Source: a virus. From it: DNA of 64,000 nt. Under the pieces are notes generated by a model. It worked only from the letters and a program-made list of their open reading frames with translations. It did not search any database and was not told the origin of the DNA. Numbering within the stretch: position 1 is the first letter of the stretch; each line of letters begins with the position of its first letter. Positions 3,596-48,872 of this stretch are shown piece after piece. A program made the translations under genes and the position numbers. The stretch lies in the IMG/VR virus record IMGVR_UViG_3300044825_001895, positions 1 to 64,000 of that record, one strand, 5' to 3'.

Positions 3596-3681
3596 AATCA
3601 TATGAGCAGTGAGGGTCCAAACCTCATATAAGTCTCACCCCTCCTATGCCTCTCATAGAAGCACAAACCAGGAGGTCTCTT

Positions 3682-4184: not shown

Positions 4185-4256
4185 GGGACATTAACTCAGC
4201 GGTAGAGTATTCGGCTTTTAACCGATTAGTCCTCGGTTCGAATCCGAGATGTCCCA
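4185..4256 (+). tRNA. tRNA-Lys(TTT)
   Basis: GGGACAT/ATGTCCC acceptor, ACTC/GAGT D stem, loop CTTTTAA, T arm CTCGG/CCGAG, discriminator A. Confidence 0.95.
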
Positions 4257-4260
4257 CCTT

Positions 4261-5397: not shown

Positions 5398-5426
5398 TTG
5401 ACAAATCTAAAAGGATTTGCTACTAT
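5398..5426 (+). promoter_or_regulatory. promoter of the tmRNA gene, TTGACA-N17-TACTAT
   Basis: Perfect -35 with a 17-base spacer; the alternative -10 TATATA is 3 bases further on. It lies between tRNA-Arg and the tmRNA acceptor piece, giving the tmRNA its own start near 5433. Confidence 0.7.
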
Positions 5427-5432
5427 ATACAA

Positions 5433-5491
5433 TGTTCAAGAGGATGCAAAGTCTGTTGCTTCGGACTGGGGTTCGATTCCCCACACTTCCA
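5433..5491 (+). ncRNA. ssrA: permuted two-piece tmRNA, acceptor piece
   Basis: The piece ends in a T arm (TGGGG-TTCGATT-CCCCA), then CACTTCC and discriminator A. CACTTCC pairs over all seven positions (two G-U) with GGGGGTG at the start of the coding piece downstream, so the gene is circularly permuted: the 3' part precedes the 5' part, separated by a 6-base intervening segment (5492-5497). Alpha-cyanobacteria have this arrangement. The 5' end is set by the promoter only. GAGGATGCAA (5440s-5450s) can also pair with the coding piece. Confidence 0.85.
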
Positions 5492-5497
5492 TTTCGA

Positions 5498-5671
5498 GGG
5501 GGTGCATTGGTTTCGACGGGGTGGTAAGGTTGTATCTGTTGACGGAACAAACAAACAAACGCAAACAACATTGTTGCATTCTCTCGCAGTAATACTACTG
5601 CCCTTGTTTAGAGGGACGGGGTGATAACGGCCCTGTAAAGAAAGCGTTACGGGCAGTGAAATGCTGCCTTT
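5498..5671 (+). ncRNA. ssrA: permuted two-piece tmRNA, coding piece with tag ORF
   Basis: It opens with GGGGGTGCATTGGTTTCGAC, the tmRNA acceptor/D-loop signature. tmRNA rescues ribosomes stalled on broken mRNA and tags the nascent peptide. The tag frame (5561-5611) encodes ANNIVAFSRSNTTALV then TAG. The first nine residues resemble picocyanobacterial tags (ANxIVSFSR...), but the end is ALV, not the usual AA seen by ClpXP. Downstream, GCCCTGTAA/TTACGGGC and GGCAG/CTGCC give pseudoknot-like helices. The 3' end is taken as the base before tRNA-Leu. Confidence 0.88.
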
Positions 5672-5745
5672 GTCTGGTTGATGGAACTGGTATACATACT
5701 TGCCTTAGAAGCAAGGTTTTGCAGGTTCGAATCCTGTACCGGACA
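5672..5745 (+). tRNA. tRNA-Leu(TAG) with short variable loop
   Basis: GTCTGGT/ACCGGAC acceptor, Leu-like D arm (GGAACTGGTATAC), CTTGC/GCAAG with loop CTTAGAA. The variable region is only GTTTT, whereas bacterial tRNA-Leu normally has a long class II arm. Confidence 0.85.
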
Positions 5746-10469: not shown

Positions 10470-11014
10470 AGACCTATTACACATATGCATACCTTCGTGA
10501 AAATGGAACACCATATTACATAGGAAAGGGAACTGGTCGTAGAGCATTTCATAAAAATCATAATGTTCCAAGACCCACTAAAGATAAAATATTATTTTTG
10601 AAGAAAAACCTTTCTGAAGAGGATGCATTAAAACACGAAAAATATCTAATATCAATATTAGATAATCTTTTAAACAGAAAAAGTGGTGGAAGTAAAGGAA
10701 GAACTCCATTAAGTGAAGAACATAAACTAAAAATTAGCAAAAAACTAAAAAAAGTTAGACCTTTACAAGTCATTACTGAAGAACATAAAGATAATATCAA
10801 ACACTCTGTAAAAAAGCATTGGGATTCTCTTTCTGAAGAAGAAAGAAATAAAAGAATTTCAAATTTTGTTAAACCTTCAAAAAAAATTTTTATAGTTGAT
10901 GGTAAAGAGTACATTGGTATTCAATCTATTATGGAACACTATAATATGACTAAAATGGAAGTTGCTAATAGAATTTATAGTAAATCTAAAAAATGGTCTT
11001 CTTGGTGCCCGTAA
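10466..11014 (+). CDS. GIY-YIG homing endonuclease with NUMOD3 repeats
   Basis: A 182-residue protein. YYTYAYLRENGTPYYIGKGTG (residues 3-23) is the GIY-YIG core; GRRAFHK.H adds the catalytic Arg region. Residues about 75-100 (GRTPLSEEHKLKISKKLKK) are a NUMOD3 repeat. The C-terminus (VDGKEYIGIQSIMEHYNMT...) is an IENR1-type DNA-binding end. It is AT-rich with long A runs, unlike the flanking genes. It probably hides its start codon until late infection. Confidence 0.85.
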   Translation: MKTYYTYAYLRENGTPYYIGKGTGRRAFHKNHNVPRPTKDKILFLKKNLSEEDALKHEKYLISILDNLLNRKSGGSKGRTPLSEEHKLKISKKLKKVRPLQVITEEHKDNIKHSVKKHWDSLSEEERNKRISNFVKPSKKIFIVDGKEYIGIQSIMEHYNMTKMEVANRIYSKSKKWSSWCP

Positions 11015-11114
11015 GATAAGGCACGTTAAATATTCTTGCTGGTGCGGATGGGACTCTCTCCCGCCTGGTTTCTTGCCTCCAGTCAAAGGGCAAGTGGCGA
11101 GCCTGAGTTACGTA

Positions 11115-28512: not shown

Positions 28513-28542
28513 AATAAATAAAATATCGAATGAGTAGGAAAG

Positions 28543-29232
28543 ATGAGAGTAGATCTTCATAACTTTTTTCAATATTATGATCCAAAGAATCCTAAGCACG
28601 TTGCAGCAGTTGAGCAACTAGAAGTAGATCTTAAGGATTCTCCACTTCTTGACGATAGTTCTAATTGGGTCAAAATTTACAGGACAAAACCAACTGTTCC
28701 TGGTGTTCTATCTGTTCCTTTTTATCCACAGACAGATAATTACAGAGATGCGCAAAGAACTTGCAATTCATCTGCTTGTGCTATGTGCTTAGAGTATTTC
28801 AAACCAGGCACTCTCCAAGGAGCAAAGGGCGATGATGCCTACGTTCGAAAAGTTTTTGCGATTGGTGATTCAACTGATCACACCGTCCAGACAAAAGTTT
28901 TGGAAGGTTATGGAATTAAGTCACGCTTTAGTTACAATTTATCTTTTTCTGATCTTGATCGTGAGTTATCTGCTGGGAGACCTGTCGTTATTGGTATCTT
29001 GCACCGCGGCTCTTTATCTAATCCTACTGGTGGGCACATGGTTGTAGTGATTGGTAAGAGAGGTGAGGATTATGTTGTGAATGATCCCTATGGTTCTCTC
29101 AATGATGGTTACACTGGACCTGTAACAAATGGTAAGGGTGCAGTCTATAAGAAGTCTGATCTTACTTATCGTTGGTTAGAAAGAGGTAAAGATAAGACTG
29201 GTTGGGGTCGTATCTTTGACGCAAAAAAGTAG
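28543..29232 (+). CDS. C39-like papain-fold peptidase (endolysin domain)
   Basis: A 229-residue protein. After an 80-residue N-part, VPFYPQTDNYRDAQRTCNSSACAM presents the catalytic Cys region and GGHMVVVIGKRGEDYVVNDPYG the His and Asp/Asn of C39-like peptidases. Such domains cleave peptide bonds, here possibly in peptidoglycan. Its end (DAKK then TAG) lies on an A-AAA-AAG slippery heptamer, and the lysozyme frame is open in the -1 frame from that point. Confidence 0.82.
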   Translation: MRVDLHNFFQYYDPKNPKHVAAVEQLEVDLKDSPLLDDSSNWVKIYRTKPTVPGVLSVPFYPQTDNYRDAQRTCNSSACAMCLEYFKPGTLQGAKGDDAYVRKVFAIGDSTDHTVQTKVLEGYGIKSRFSYNLSFSDLDRELSAGRPVVIGILHRGSLSNPTGGHMVVVIGKRGEDYVVNDPYGSLNDGYTGPVTNGKGAVYKKSDLTYRWLERGKDKTGWGRIFDAKK

Positions 29233-29282
29233 AAACGCCAACTAACATTAATAATGCCAATGAAGTGCCGTTGGTTGGCATT
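29223..29282 (+). other. candidate -1 programmed frameshift site
   Basis: Slippery A-AAA-AAG (29223-29229) immediately before the TAG stop. AATGCCAA/TTGGCATT (29253-29260 with 29275-29282) can form an 8-pair hairpin downstream; GCCAAC (29237) can pair alternatively with GTTGGC. Shifting -1 gives the linker VETPTNINNANEVPLV, then lysozyme. Confidence 0.5.
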
Positions 29283-29723
29283 AATTTAATTAAAGAGTTT
29301 GAAGGATGTCATTTGAATGCTTATCCAGATCCTTTAACAAAAGGACCACCTATTACAATAGGTTGGGGAAGCACTAAAGACTTTGACGGAACACCATTTA
29401 AAATAGGTAGAGTGATTACTCAAAAGTATGCAGACACTCTACTTGAGTTTGATTTAAAGAATAGATTTTTACCAGCACTTCAAAGAATACCTTATTGGAG
29501 CGAAATGAATGAAAATCAACAAGGCACAATTCTTAGCTTTGCTTATAATCTTGGTGCTAATTTTTATGGAAGCTCTAATTTTAATACGATAACTAGAGTT
29601 CTTAAAAACAAAGAATGGACTAAAGTACCTGATGCCTTATATCTTTATCATAACCCAGGAACAAGTGTAGAAGCAGGATTGAAGAGGAGGAGAGTTGCAG
29701 AAGGTAAACTTTGGAGTTCTTAA
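29265..29723 (+). CDS. GH24 lysozyme (muramidase) domain
   Basis: About 152 residues. NLIKEFEGCHLNAYPDPLTK and ITIGWGST give the E...D...T catalytic triad of phage lysozymes, which cut the glycan between MurNAc and GlcNAc. The only in-frame start is a GTG at 29265 without a ribosome site, while the frame is open upstream to the slippery site. It is therefore likely made as a fusion with the C39-like protein by frameshift, or else by weak internal initiation. Convergent with small genes on the other strand. Confidence 0.85.
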   Translation: MPLVGINLIKEFEGCHLNAYPDPLTKGPPITIGWGSTKDFDGTPFKIGRVITQKYADTLLEFDLKNRFLPALQRIPYWSEMNENQQGTILSFAYNLGANFYGSSNFNTITRVLKNKEWTKVPDALYLYHNPGTSVEAGLKRRRVAEGKLWSS

Positions 29724-30381: not shown

Positions 30382-30477
30382 AAATAGGTAAACAAATGTT
30401 ACGAAACGCTAACGATTCTTAACATTGTTAAACACCCGCTAACCGAGACCTATGGGTGTATAAAAACGTCTCTCATA

Positions 30478-30500
30478 CCCACAGTGGAGGGTGCTGTGGG
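30478..30500 (+). promoter_or_regulatory. psbA leader hairpin
   Basis: CCCACAG-TGGAGGGTG-CTGTGGG, a GC-rich 7-pair stem-loop with GGAGGG in the loop, 54 bases before the psbA ATG. It may stabilise the mRNA or control translation. Confidence 0.55.
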
Positions 30501-30553
30501 GAATAATCGTATCAGTTCGTCCCCCCGAACTTTTAACTAACTCTCTTAAACAA

Positions 30554-31633
30554 ATGACTGCTACAATTTCACGTCAACAACAATCGAATACTTGGGAACA
30601 ATTCTGCAACTGGGTTACTAGCACTGATAACCGTCTCTATGTAGGTTGGTTCGGAGTCCTGATGATTCCAACATTGCTCGCCGCAACAATCTGCTTCATC
30701 ATCGCATTTGTCGGTGCTCCCCCTGTAGACATTGATGGAATCCGTGAACCAGTCGCTGGTTCTCTAATGTATGGAAACAACATCATCTCTGGTGCTGTTA
30801 TTCCTTCGTCCAACGCGATTGGACTGCACTTCTACCCCATCTGGGAAGCTGCTTCACTTGATGAGTGGCTTTACAACGGCGGACCTTTCCAACTGGTAGT
30901 GTTCCACTTCCTCATCGGCATCTATGCTTATATGGGTCGTGAATGGGAACTCTCATACCGCCTAGGTATGCGTCCTTGGATCTGTGTTGCTTACTCTGCA
31001 CCTGTTGCTGCTGCCAGCGCAGTGTTCCTAGTCTATCCTTTCGGTCAAGGTTCTTTCTCTGATGCAATGCCTCTGGGTATCTCTGGTACCTTCAACTACA
31101 TGCTTGTTTTCCAGGCAGAACATAACATCCTGATGCACCCCTTCCACATGCTTGGAGTTGCTGGTGTCTTCGGTGGTTCACTGTTCTCTGCAATGCACGG
31201 TTCTCTAGTTACTTCCTCACTGGTTCGTGAAACCACCGAGCAAGAGTCGCAGAACTATGGTTACAAGTTCGGTCAAGAAGAAGAGACTTATAACATCGTT
31301 GCAGCACACGGTTATTTCGGTCGCCTGATCTTCCAATATGCTTCCTTCAATAACTCTCGTTCGCTACACTTCTTCCTTGCTGCTTGGCCTGTTGTCGGTA
31401 TCTGGTTCACTGCTCTTGGTGTTAGCACCATGGCCTTTAACTTAAATGGCTTTAATTTCAACCAGTCTCTGCTTGATAGTCAGGGTCGTGTAGTTAACAC
31501 CTGGGCTGATGTTCTTAACCGTGCTGGACTGGGAATGGAAGTGATGCACGAGAGAAATGCACATAACTTTCCTTTGGACCTGGCTGCTGCCGAAGCAACT
31601 CCTGTTGCTCTAACTGCACCTTCTATCGGTTGA
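30554..31633 (+). CDS. psbA: photosystem II reaction-centre protein D1
   Basis: A 359-residue D1. Residue 130 is Glu (YMGREWELS), the form of the high-light D1 isoform. The manganese-cluster ligand region [13 protein letters not shown] and the processed C-terminal extension ([14 protein letters not shown]) are intact. No intron interrupts it. D1 turns over fast in light, so phage copies keep photosynthesis going after host expression stops. ATG 30554 preferred over the upstream 30491. Confidence 0.98.
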
Positions 31634-47973: not shown

Positions 47974-48693
47974 ATGCCTTTACCAAAAATCTCTACGCCA
48001 ACATATGAGTTGGAACTTCCTTCTACAGGACAAGAAATTCAATATAGACCATTTCTTGTCAAAGAAGAAAAACTTCTTGTTCTTGCATTAGAAAGTGAGA
48101 ATATAAAAGAAATCACAACAGCAATTAAGAATGTAATCAAGAGTTGCATTCAGACAAAAAACATCAAAGTTGAATCTCTTCCTACTTTTGATATTGAATA
48201 TCTCTTTTTGAATATTCGCGGTAAGTCTGTTGGGGAAGAGATTGAAGTTAATGTCATCTGCCCTGATGATGGGGAGACTTATGTTCCCGTGAAAATTAAT
48301 ATTGACGAAATTCAAGTTCAAAAGAATGAAGAGCATACGAATAAAATTCAAGTAGATGATAATATCGTTATGCAAATGAAGTATCCTTCATTGGATCAAT
48401 TCATTAAAAACAACTTTGATTTTTCTGGTGATACAAATATGGACCAGTCCTTTGATCTGGTCGCTAGTTGTATTGATAAAATCTTTAATGAAGAAGAAGT
48501 TTGGACTTCAGGTGATGTAACTAAAAAGGAACTCATTGATTTCTTGGAGCAAATGAACTCTGCTCAATTCAAGCAAATTGAAAAGTTCTTTGAAACAATG
48601 CCTAAACTTTCTCATTCGGTAAAGGTTAAGAATCCAAAAACTGAAGTTGAAAGTGAAGTTGTATTGGAAGGGTTATCCAGTTTTTTCGCATAG
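47974..48693 (+). CDS. 26: baseplate hub assembly protein gp26
   Basis: A 239-residue protein. TYELELPSTGQEIQYRPFLV and KEEKLLVLALESENIKEITT match the gp26 N-terminus; an extended C-half (SLDQFIKNNFDFSGDTNMDQ) is as in cyanophages. TAAATAATTATAC upstream is a late-type core. Confidence 0.85.
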   Translation: MPLPKISTPTYELELPSTGQEIQYRPFLVKEEKLLVLALESENIKEITTAIKNVIKSCIQTKNIKVESLPTFDIEYLFLNIRGKSVGEEIEVNVICPDDGETYVPVKINIDEIQVQKNEEHTNKIQVDDNIVMQMKYPSLDQFIKNNFDFSGDTNMDQSFDLVASCIDKIFNEEEVWTSGDVTKKELIDFLEQMNSAQFKQIEKFFETMPKLSHSVKVKNPKTEVESEVVLEGLSSFFA

Positions 48694-48695
48694 GT

Positions 48696-48872
48696 ATGGT
48701 CCATATGGACCTAGAAAATTTCTATAAGTTGAACTTTGCTTTGATGCAGTACCATAAATATTCACTATGGGAGATTGAAAATATGATGCCCTGGGAAAGG
48801 GATGTGTATGTTGCAATGTTGAAGAATTATTTGGAAGAAGAAAAATCAAAGCAGCAACAAAATGGAAACTAA
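48696..48872 (+). CDS. 51: baseplate hub assembly protein gp51-like
   Basis: A 58-residue protein: LENFYKLNFALMQYHKYSLW and WERDVYVAMLKNYLEEEK. It follows gp26 directly, as the gp26/gp51 pair of tail-assembly factors does in myoviruses. An ATG at 48705 is an alternative start. Confidence 0.7.
   Translation: MVHMDLENFYKLNFALMQYHKYSLWEIENMMPWERDVYVAMLKNYLEEEKSKQQQNGN

Follow-up and report, generated by a model that had tools for sequence, protein, structure and literature searches.

The dnaX gene (tau/gamma) of Escherichia coli carries the heptamer A AAA AAG and a downstream stem-loop, and the heptamer is slippery in this bacterium because a sole lysine tRNA reads both AAA and AAG (PMC5009743, available in part). 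In a few bacteria, dnaX-type arrangements are reversed and the frameshift makes the long product (PMC5009743, same portion). The tail-assembly chaperone of phage lambda is likewise made in a short and a long form, gpG and gpGT, through a −1 frameshift near the gene end, according to the same partly available source (PMC5009743). With regard to lysis, known frameshifts in 'lysins' are cited in the accessible part of the PRFect paper (PMC10885494), a Lactococcus phage paper being among its references, and mycobacteriophage Ms6 lysA, with an embedded second endolysin, also gives two endolysin forms from one gene, as far as the limited text available on it goes. The locus studied here shares with E. 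coli dnaX the A AAA AAG heptamer, one lysine tRNA and the downstream stem-loop. Very likely, it constitutes a −1 programmed ribosomal frameshift cassette conserved in a lysis gene of T4-like cyanophages, its predicted products being a peptidase of 229 aa and a peptidase-lysozyme of 393 aa. The ribosomes would translate the peptidase to its end and reach A AAA AAG, where two lysyl-tRNAs would slip back by one base with the help of a hairpin located a few bases 3' of the heptamer; the slipped ribosomes would bypass the stop codon and enter the GH24 lysozyme frame, so that one mRNA would give both products. The comparative sequence data strongly support −1 programmed ribosomal frameshifting as by far the best reading, the slippage itself being inferred, without laboratory demonstration.

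The window, i.e., the whole analysed stretch of 64,000 nucleotides, was taken from a viral record of 92,435 bases. It is a tRNA-rich T4-like cyanophage contig with a psbA-like ORF and T4-like tail genes; the virus is one of photosynthetic bacteria, and the locus is assigned to T4-like cyanophages (Kyanoviridae). The ORF at 30491-31633 is the one that we take to be psbA-like. The features relevant to the locus and its surroundings are collected in Table 1. Several further elements were recorded in the window as separate observations. A permuted tmRNA gene of the Cyanobacteria type (5402-5702, + strand; Rfam RF01851, 112 bits, and RF04321), with the tag ANNIVAFSRSNTTALV, sits within the phage tRNA cluster, and an abiF RNA match (3640-3676, + strand; 40.3 bits versus a gathering score of 37) adjoins a tRNA-Arg gene. 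A second −1 frameshift candidate (47974-48872, + strand) leads from gene 26 (baseplate hub, PHROG 150), which ends AGT TTT TTC GCA TAG, to a gp51-like ORF (PHROG 634); its −1 frame spans the gp51-like ORF and is followed by an 800-aa ORF. The T TTT TTC heptamer and the open −1 frame were present in all six phages compared (the window, S-SM2, S-RIM2, S-RSM4, ACG-2014f and S-CAM4), and gp51 is not annotated in S-CAM4.

Table 1. Positions of the frameshift locus and of other features in the window.
Feature	Position	Strand	Basis or remark
C39-like (papain-fold) peptidase ORF, zero-frame product, 229 aa	28543..29232	+	ORF, Pfam profile and fold model
Slippery heptamer A AAA AAG	29223..29229	+	X XXY YYZ phase of the zero frame
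Zero-frame TAG stop	29230..29232	+	Sequence; immediately 3' of the heptamer
−1 frame, linker and GH24 lysozyme (PF00959)	29220..29723	+	164 residues from GTA at 29229
Hairpin, conserved, 5' arm	29237..29246	+	GCCAACTAAC; 7 nt 3' of the heptamer
Hairpin, conserved, 3' arm	29270..29279	+	GTTGGTTGGC; pairs with 29237-29246
Hairpin of the first-pass annotation	29253-29260 / 29275-29282	+	AATGCCAA/TTGGCATT; competing fold
GTG, only notable alternative lysozyme start	29265..29267	+	No ribosome site seen; not conserved
tRNA-Lys(UUU), phage-encoded	4185..4258	+	Sole lysine tRNA found in the window
wcaG RNA	11003-11108	+	RNA family match
PhotoRC-II RNA	30420-30514	+	RNA family match; overlaps the start of the psbA-like ORF

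The peptidase ORF starts with ATG just 3' of an AGGA-type ribosome site (28536-28539), matches Peptidase_C39_2 (PF13529; 5.3e-12, 47 bits versus a cut-off of 24) and reads ...GAC GCA AAA AAG TAG at its 3' end. The first-pass annotation had placed the stop of this ORF right after A-AAA-AAG and had read the −1 codons as an open linker running into the lysozyme. Both points were borne out: the −1 frame begins V-ETPTNINNANEVPLV-GINLIKEFEG, stays open up to TAA at 29721-29723 and matches Phage_lysozyme (PF00959; 2.6e-20, 73.5 bits versus a cut-off of 22.3), and the predicted slip product comprises 229 + 164 = 393 aa. The heptamer lies in the phase and inside the frame overlap expected of an X XXY YYZ −1 frameshift. 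A G-rich stretch upstream of the slip site encodes GWGR and is explained by protein coding. The residues Q/C/H/D of the peptidase and E/D/T of the lysozyme are presumably catalytic. The C39 motif was intact in 129 of the 130 heptamer-bearing loci described below, the sole deviation being DPFG in place of DPYG, and the GH24 motif E-8-D-8-T was intact in the window and in all 130. A Foldseek search with the peptidase model (pLDDT 76.7) returned 3erv, PCAT1 and the pseudomurein endoisopeptidase PeiR at TMq values of about 0.44-0.50; the modelled fold resembles papain-like C39 domains, at moderate scores only, and a sequence-profile search of the PDB with the peptidase gave no match. The peptidase also matched the profile of PHROG 10051 (lysis). 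An activity on peptidoglycan peptides is inferred from this match and from the fusion to the lysozyme, which in turn is inferred to cut the peptidoglycan sugar chain. Among the 191 ORFs of the window (≥60 aa, both strands), A AAA AAG occurred in frame nine times, and only the peptidase heptamer had a −1 frame continuing for at least 50 codons beyond the stop. The arrangement is beyond chance because it is conserved in relatives.

The relatives were gathered from five scans of viral contigs (the best 80 of several hundred in each, a sampling that favours near kin), together with named loci and the window. Out of 358 collected sequences, 45 without one of the domains were dropped, and 123 of the remaining 313 were redundant across the compared region, leaving 190 unique loci. 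Among the matches listed, these comprised 151 −1 overlaps, 27 fused loci, 10 loci with separate genes and two with the lysozyme upstream or absent; no +1 overlap of the two frames was found, all 151 overlaps being −1. Since loci of the same contig recovered by several scans may persist as near-copies, clusters at 90% identity were used. The fold and arm-swap tests included all 111 cluster representatives (95 with and 16 without the heptamer); 17 clusters contained at least one row lacking the heptamer, one of them being mixed. A zero-frame slippery heptamer was present in 130 of the 151 unique −1 overlaps, corresponding to 95 clusters, and was A AAA AAG in 124 loci, T TTT TTT in four, and A AAA AAA and C CCA AAG in one each. 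It stood immediately 5' of the stop codon in 105 of the 130. The base preceding the two lysine codons was A in 125/125 A-type sites, against a background of 29% (1523/5188) for A as the third base of upstream Ala/Val/Thr/Ile codons; the upstream lysine codons were 939 AAA and 585 AAG. The linker was open in the −1 frame in 95/95 clusters, and a +1 stop was present in 81 of them. The signals, their phase and their conservation are thus direct observations, as are the covariation and the lack of other starts in many relatives considered below.

Alternatively, the lysozyme could have a translation start of its own, used through reinitiation or coupling where the peptidase ORF stops, and the heptamer would then be incidental. 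The earlier statement that the lysozyme has neither an ATG nor a ribosome site of its own was correct for the window, where no in-frame ATG was found, but it had overlooked the GTG at 29265 and a TTG at 29271 in the same frame. No Shine-Dalgarno-like sequence was seen before this GTG. GTG or TTG codons 3' of the slip were present in 34 clusters, the window included, and starts beside the heptamer were seen as ATGA in four clusters, as GTGA or TTGA in eight and as a downstream ATG in three; S-SRM01 (A AAA AAG CAA TGA) combines the heptamer with an ATGA start. An ATGA overlap start was likewise found in 19 of the 21 overlaps without the heptamer, which would suit a separate start. Against it, no ATG, GTG or TTG was found between the slip and the lysozyme in 66 of the 130 unique heptamer loci (48 of 95 clusters), including S-PM2 and S-CAM7, and a separate start gives no account of why A-AAA-AAG keeps a strict phase, why the linker stays open and why the hairpin covaries and is missing from the loci without the heptamer. 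We therefore regard it as very unlikely.

The relation between loci with and without the heptamer was followed on a peptidase tree, built with a quick method that left 58 of 142 inner branches open. Both kinds of rows were interleaved in the main clade, and the frameshift label required 18 changes, which counts against the frameshift reading. The mixing suggests, within the reach of the many weak branches of the tree, that lysozyme ends have often been exchanged or lost, with swapping in the main clade. Gain and loss of the states could not be distinguished on this tree.

A hairpin beginning 23 bases past the slip had been proposed in the first-pass annotation. This helix exists, but the functional one is most likely the helix starting 7 nt after the heptamer, with which it shares much of its 3' arm. 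The two are about equally stable in the window, at −13.7 kcal/mol for the conserved helix and −14.1 kcal/mol for the minimum-energy fold, which holds the first-pass helix, and they compete at pairing probabilities of about 51% versus 49%. In the arm-swap test, matched arms of the 95 heptamer representatives gave −15.74 kcal/mol versus −8.54 kcal/mol for swapped arms (0/5000 permutations), whereas the 16 representatives without the heptamer gave no signal (−4.86 versus −4.48 kcal/mol; 846/5000 permutations). The fold z was −2.37 for the former and −0.43 for the latter; it was below −2 in 58 of the 95 heptamer representatives and not in the other 37. Pairing of at least 8 bp between the 20 bases that follow the heptamer and the region before the I-K-x-F-E motif of the lysozyme was found in 85/95 representatives, 10 having fewer than eight base pairs in this duplex test. 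Because the arm-swap test placed the 3' arm directly ahead of the lysozyme motif, it overlooked the actual arm in S-CAM7 and in the C CCA AAG locus (L342), whose own hairpins lie at other positions; both loci were kept in the counts. The arms fall into varying classes with different registers, e.g., TCAACACCACA/TGTGGTGTTGA, AGTTCTACTCC/GGAGTAGAACT and GCCAACTAAT/GTTAGTTGGC. An alignment of 20 out of 22 sequences of the first of these classes (L165 and L258, with a hairpin of another class, were excluded) had 98.2% of cells paired and four pairs changed on both sides; the controls on the same 20 sequences gave 0/500 shuffles and 30-48% for slid versions. The predicted downstream RNA structure is thus conserved by covariation, the window itself having two competing folds. 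The spacer estimated from the duplexes was 0-7 nt (median 3), and many predicted stems enter the spacer or the stop codon; the lowest stem pairs would presumably be open on the ribosome. A rare ATT/ATA/ATC start was considered for the hairpin class with GGAG in its 3' arm and rejected: the codon varies, and other classes are without GGAG. The core of the first-pass proposal, a −1 frameshift joining the peptidase to the GH24 lysozyme, is supported by features conserved in the 95 clusters (phase, heptamer, open −1 frame and a hairpin that covaries), as well as by in-frame fusions in relatives and by the S-PM2 junction in two records.

The RNA polymerase might instead slip on the A run, so that some transcripts would contain one additional A and encode the fusion for standard translation; this reading ranks behind a separate start and is very improbable too. 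Six A residues could permit some such slippage, yet the run has exactly six A before a G in 124/130 loci, and the described bacterial case uses runs of nine (PMC5009743, accessible portion). The two loci with A7 at the slip position (L111, L115), fused in one frame, and the T8 run of S-CAM7 would fit an extra base in the transcript; the frame phase and the hairpin spacing, on the other hand, suit tRNA slippage. A sequencing error or a decayed pseudogene, i.e., a gene that is truly in one frame, as in the fused ACG-2014f relatives, or a dead lysozyme, can be practically ruled out, being already contradicted by the identical S-PM2 junction in two records and by an arrangement common to 130 unique loci with intact catalytic motifs.

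One-frame homologues, which the first-pass annotation had advised looking for, were found in 27 of the 190 unique loci among the matches listed; homologues that are always separate and have good lysozyme starts, which it had named as refuting the frameshift, were not the rule, although some relatives are separate or overlap by ATGA. In ACG-2014f, the peptidase-lysozyme (PHROG 3617) is encoded in a single frame of 405 aa, both halves of the window fusion match it over the family length, and the frame roles are swapped in comparison to the window. The A AAA AAG heptamer was kept in eight of the 27 fused loci (L004, L005, L093-L096, L116 and L339), and the −1 frame stopped one codon later in all eight (GTC TGA or GCC TGA). 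A hairpin followed the heptamer in 7/7 of those folded (L096 was not), and six further ACG-2014f records had the same junction of heptamer and −1 stop. A slip in these loci, of the ACG-2014f type and of one other lineage (L116/L339), would release the short peptidase. The heptamer was absent from 17 of the 27 fused loci, and the two with A7 (L111, L115) may be natural in-frame fusions or base-count errors. The role swap in ACG-2014f-type phages suggests, by analogy with dnaX, a high slip efficiency, perhaps tens of percent, which remains a guess. That slippage occurs and that both products are needed is inferred, and the set ratio of the two products put forward in the first-pass annotation is a prediction. 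We see an even chance that a single efficient slippery site keeps the peptidase and the peptidase-lysozyme near equal, that the zero-frame default can be swapped without losing either, and that slippery sites have two or more origins here (A AAA AAG and T TTT TTT). As part of this same evenly balanced claim, the fusion would be made by slip in most loci, and the peptidase by slip in the ACG-2014f types and the L116/L339 lineage.

Several named phages illustrate the range of arrangements. S-PM2 reads A AAA AAG TAA with an open −1 frame, its junction is identical in two records, and the predicted fusion junction includes ...FDAKKVTSSTSR.... S-CAM7 has T TTT TTT followed by CCA CAG TAG, within a T8 run, and an open −1 frame; no lysozyme start codon was found in the two records examined. 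Since S-CAM7 lies inside the fused clade of the peptidase tree, with its own heptamer and hairpin, a separate origin of its type of slippery site is suggested, with the reservation that many branches of this tree are weak. S-CREM1 has the fusion in reverse order, lysozyme first, and DSL-LC02 and DSL-LC03 have the peptidase and lysozyme as separate genes. The N-terminal stretch of the DSL-LC03 lysozyme matches the same part of the PHROG 10051 profile as the peptidase start; we infer from this that there seems to be a use for the N-terminal module on the lysozyme as well. This natural series (frameshift, role-swapped, in-frame fusion, reversed order, coupled and separate) bears on why the phage wants both forms, and S-PM2 on Synechococcus WH7803 offers a directly testable system. 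The results also correct annotations, as the S-PM2 and S-CAM7 records carry only short lysin pieces and the S-SRM01 lysin is annotated from ATGA.

No paper on this locus was found by title or abstract in the literature on cyanophage and endolysin frameshifts (subscription papers were outside the scope). Neither 'cyano' nor 'lysozyme' turned up in the PRFect paper (PMC10885494), neither 'endolysin' nor 'cyanophage' in the opening 300,000 characters of the Atkins review, and neither 'frameshift' nor 'C39' in the available part of the S-CREM2 paper. The mechanism is known; no account of cyanophages using it to connect a peptidase with a lysozyme emerged from the literature searched. The locus would represent an apparently widespread, covariation-supported frameshift in phage lysis, a process for which that literature documents hardly any recoding. 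Judging by their titles, the Lactococcus phage lysin frameshift concerns another phage and host, and the second form of Ms6 lysA comes from an in-frame embedded gene, not from a frameshift. The lambda gpG/gpGT pair is a structural chaperone, whereas the cyanophage product is a lysis enzyme. In comparison to dnaX, the gene and purpose are different, and the stop follows the heptamer directly in most cyanophage loci. The window nevertheless resembles E. coli in that only tRNA-Lys(UUU) was found in it (host lysine tRNAs were not covered), and the role-swapped ACG-2014f gene is like E. coli dnaX itself, in that a slip would make the short form.
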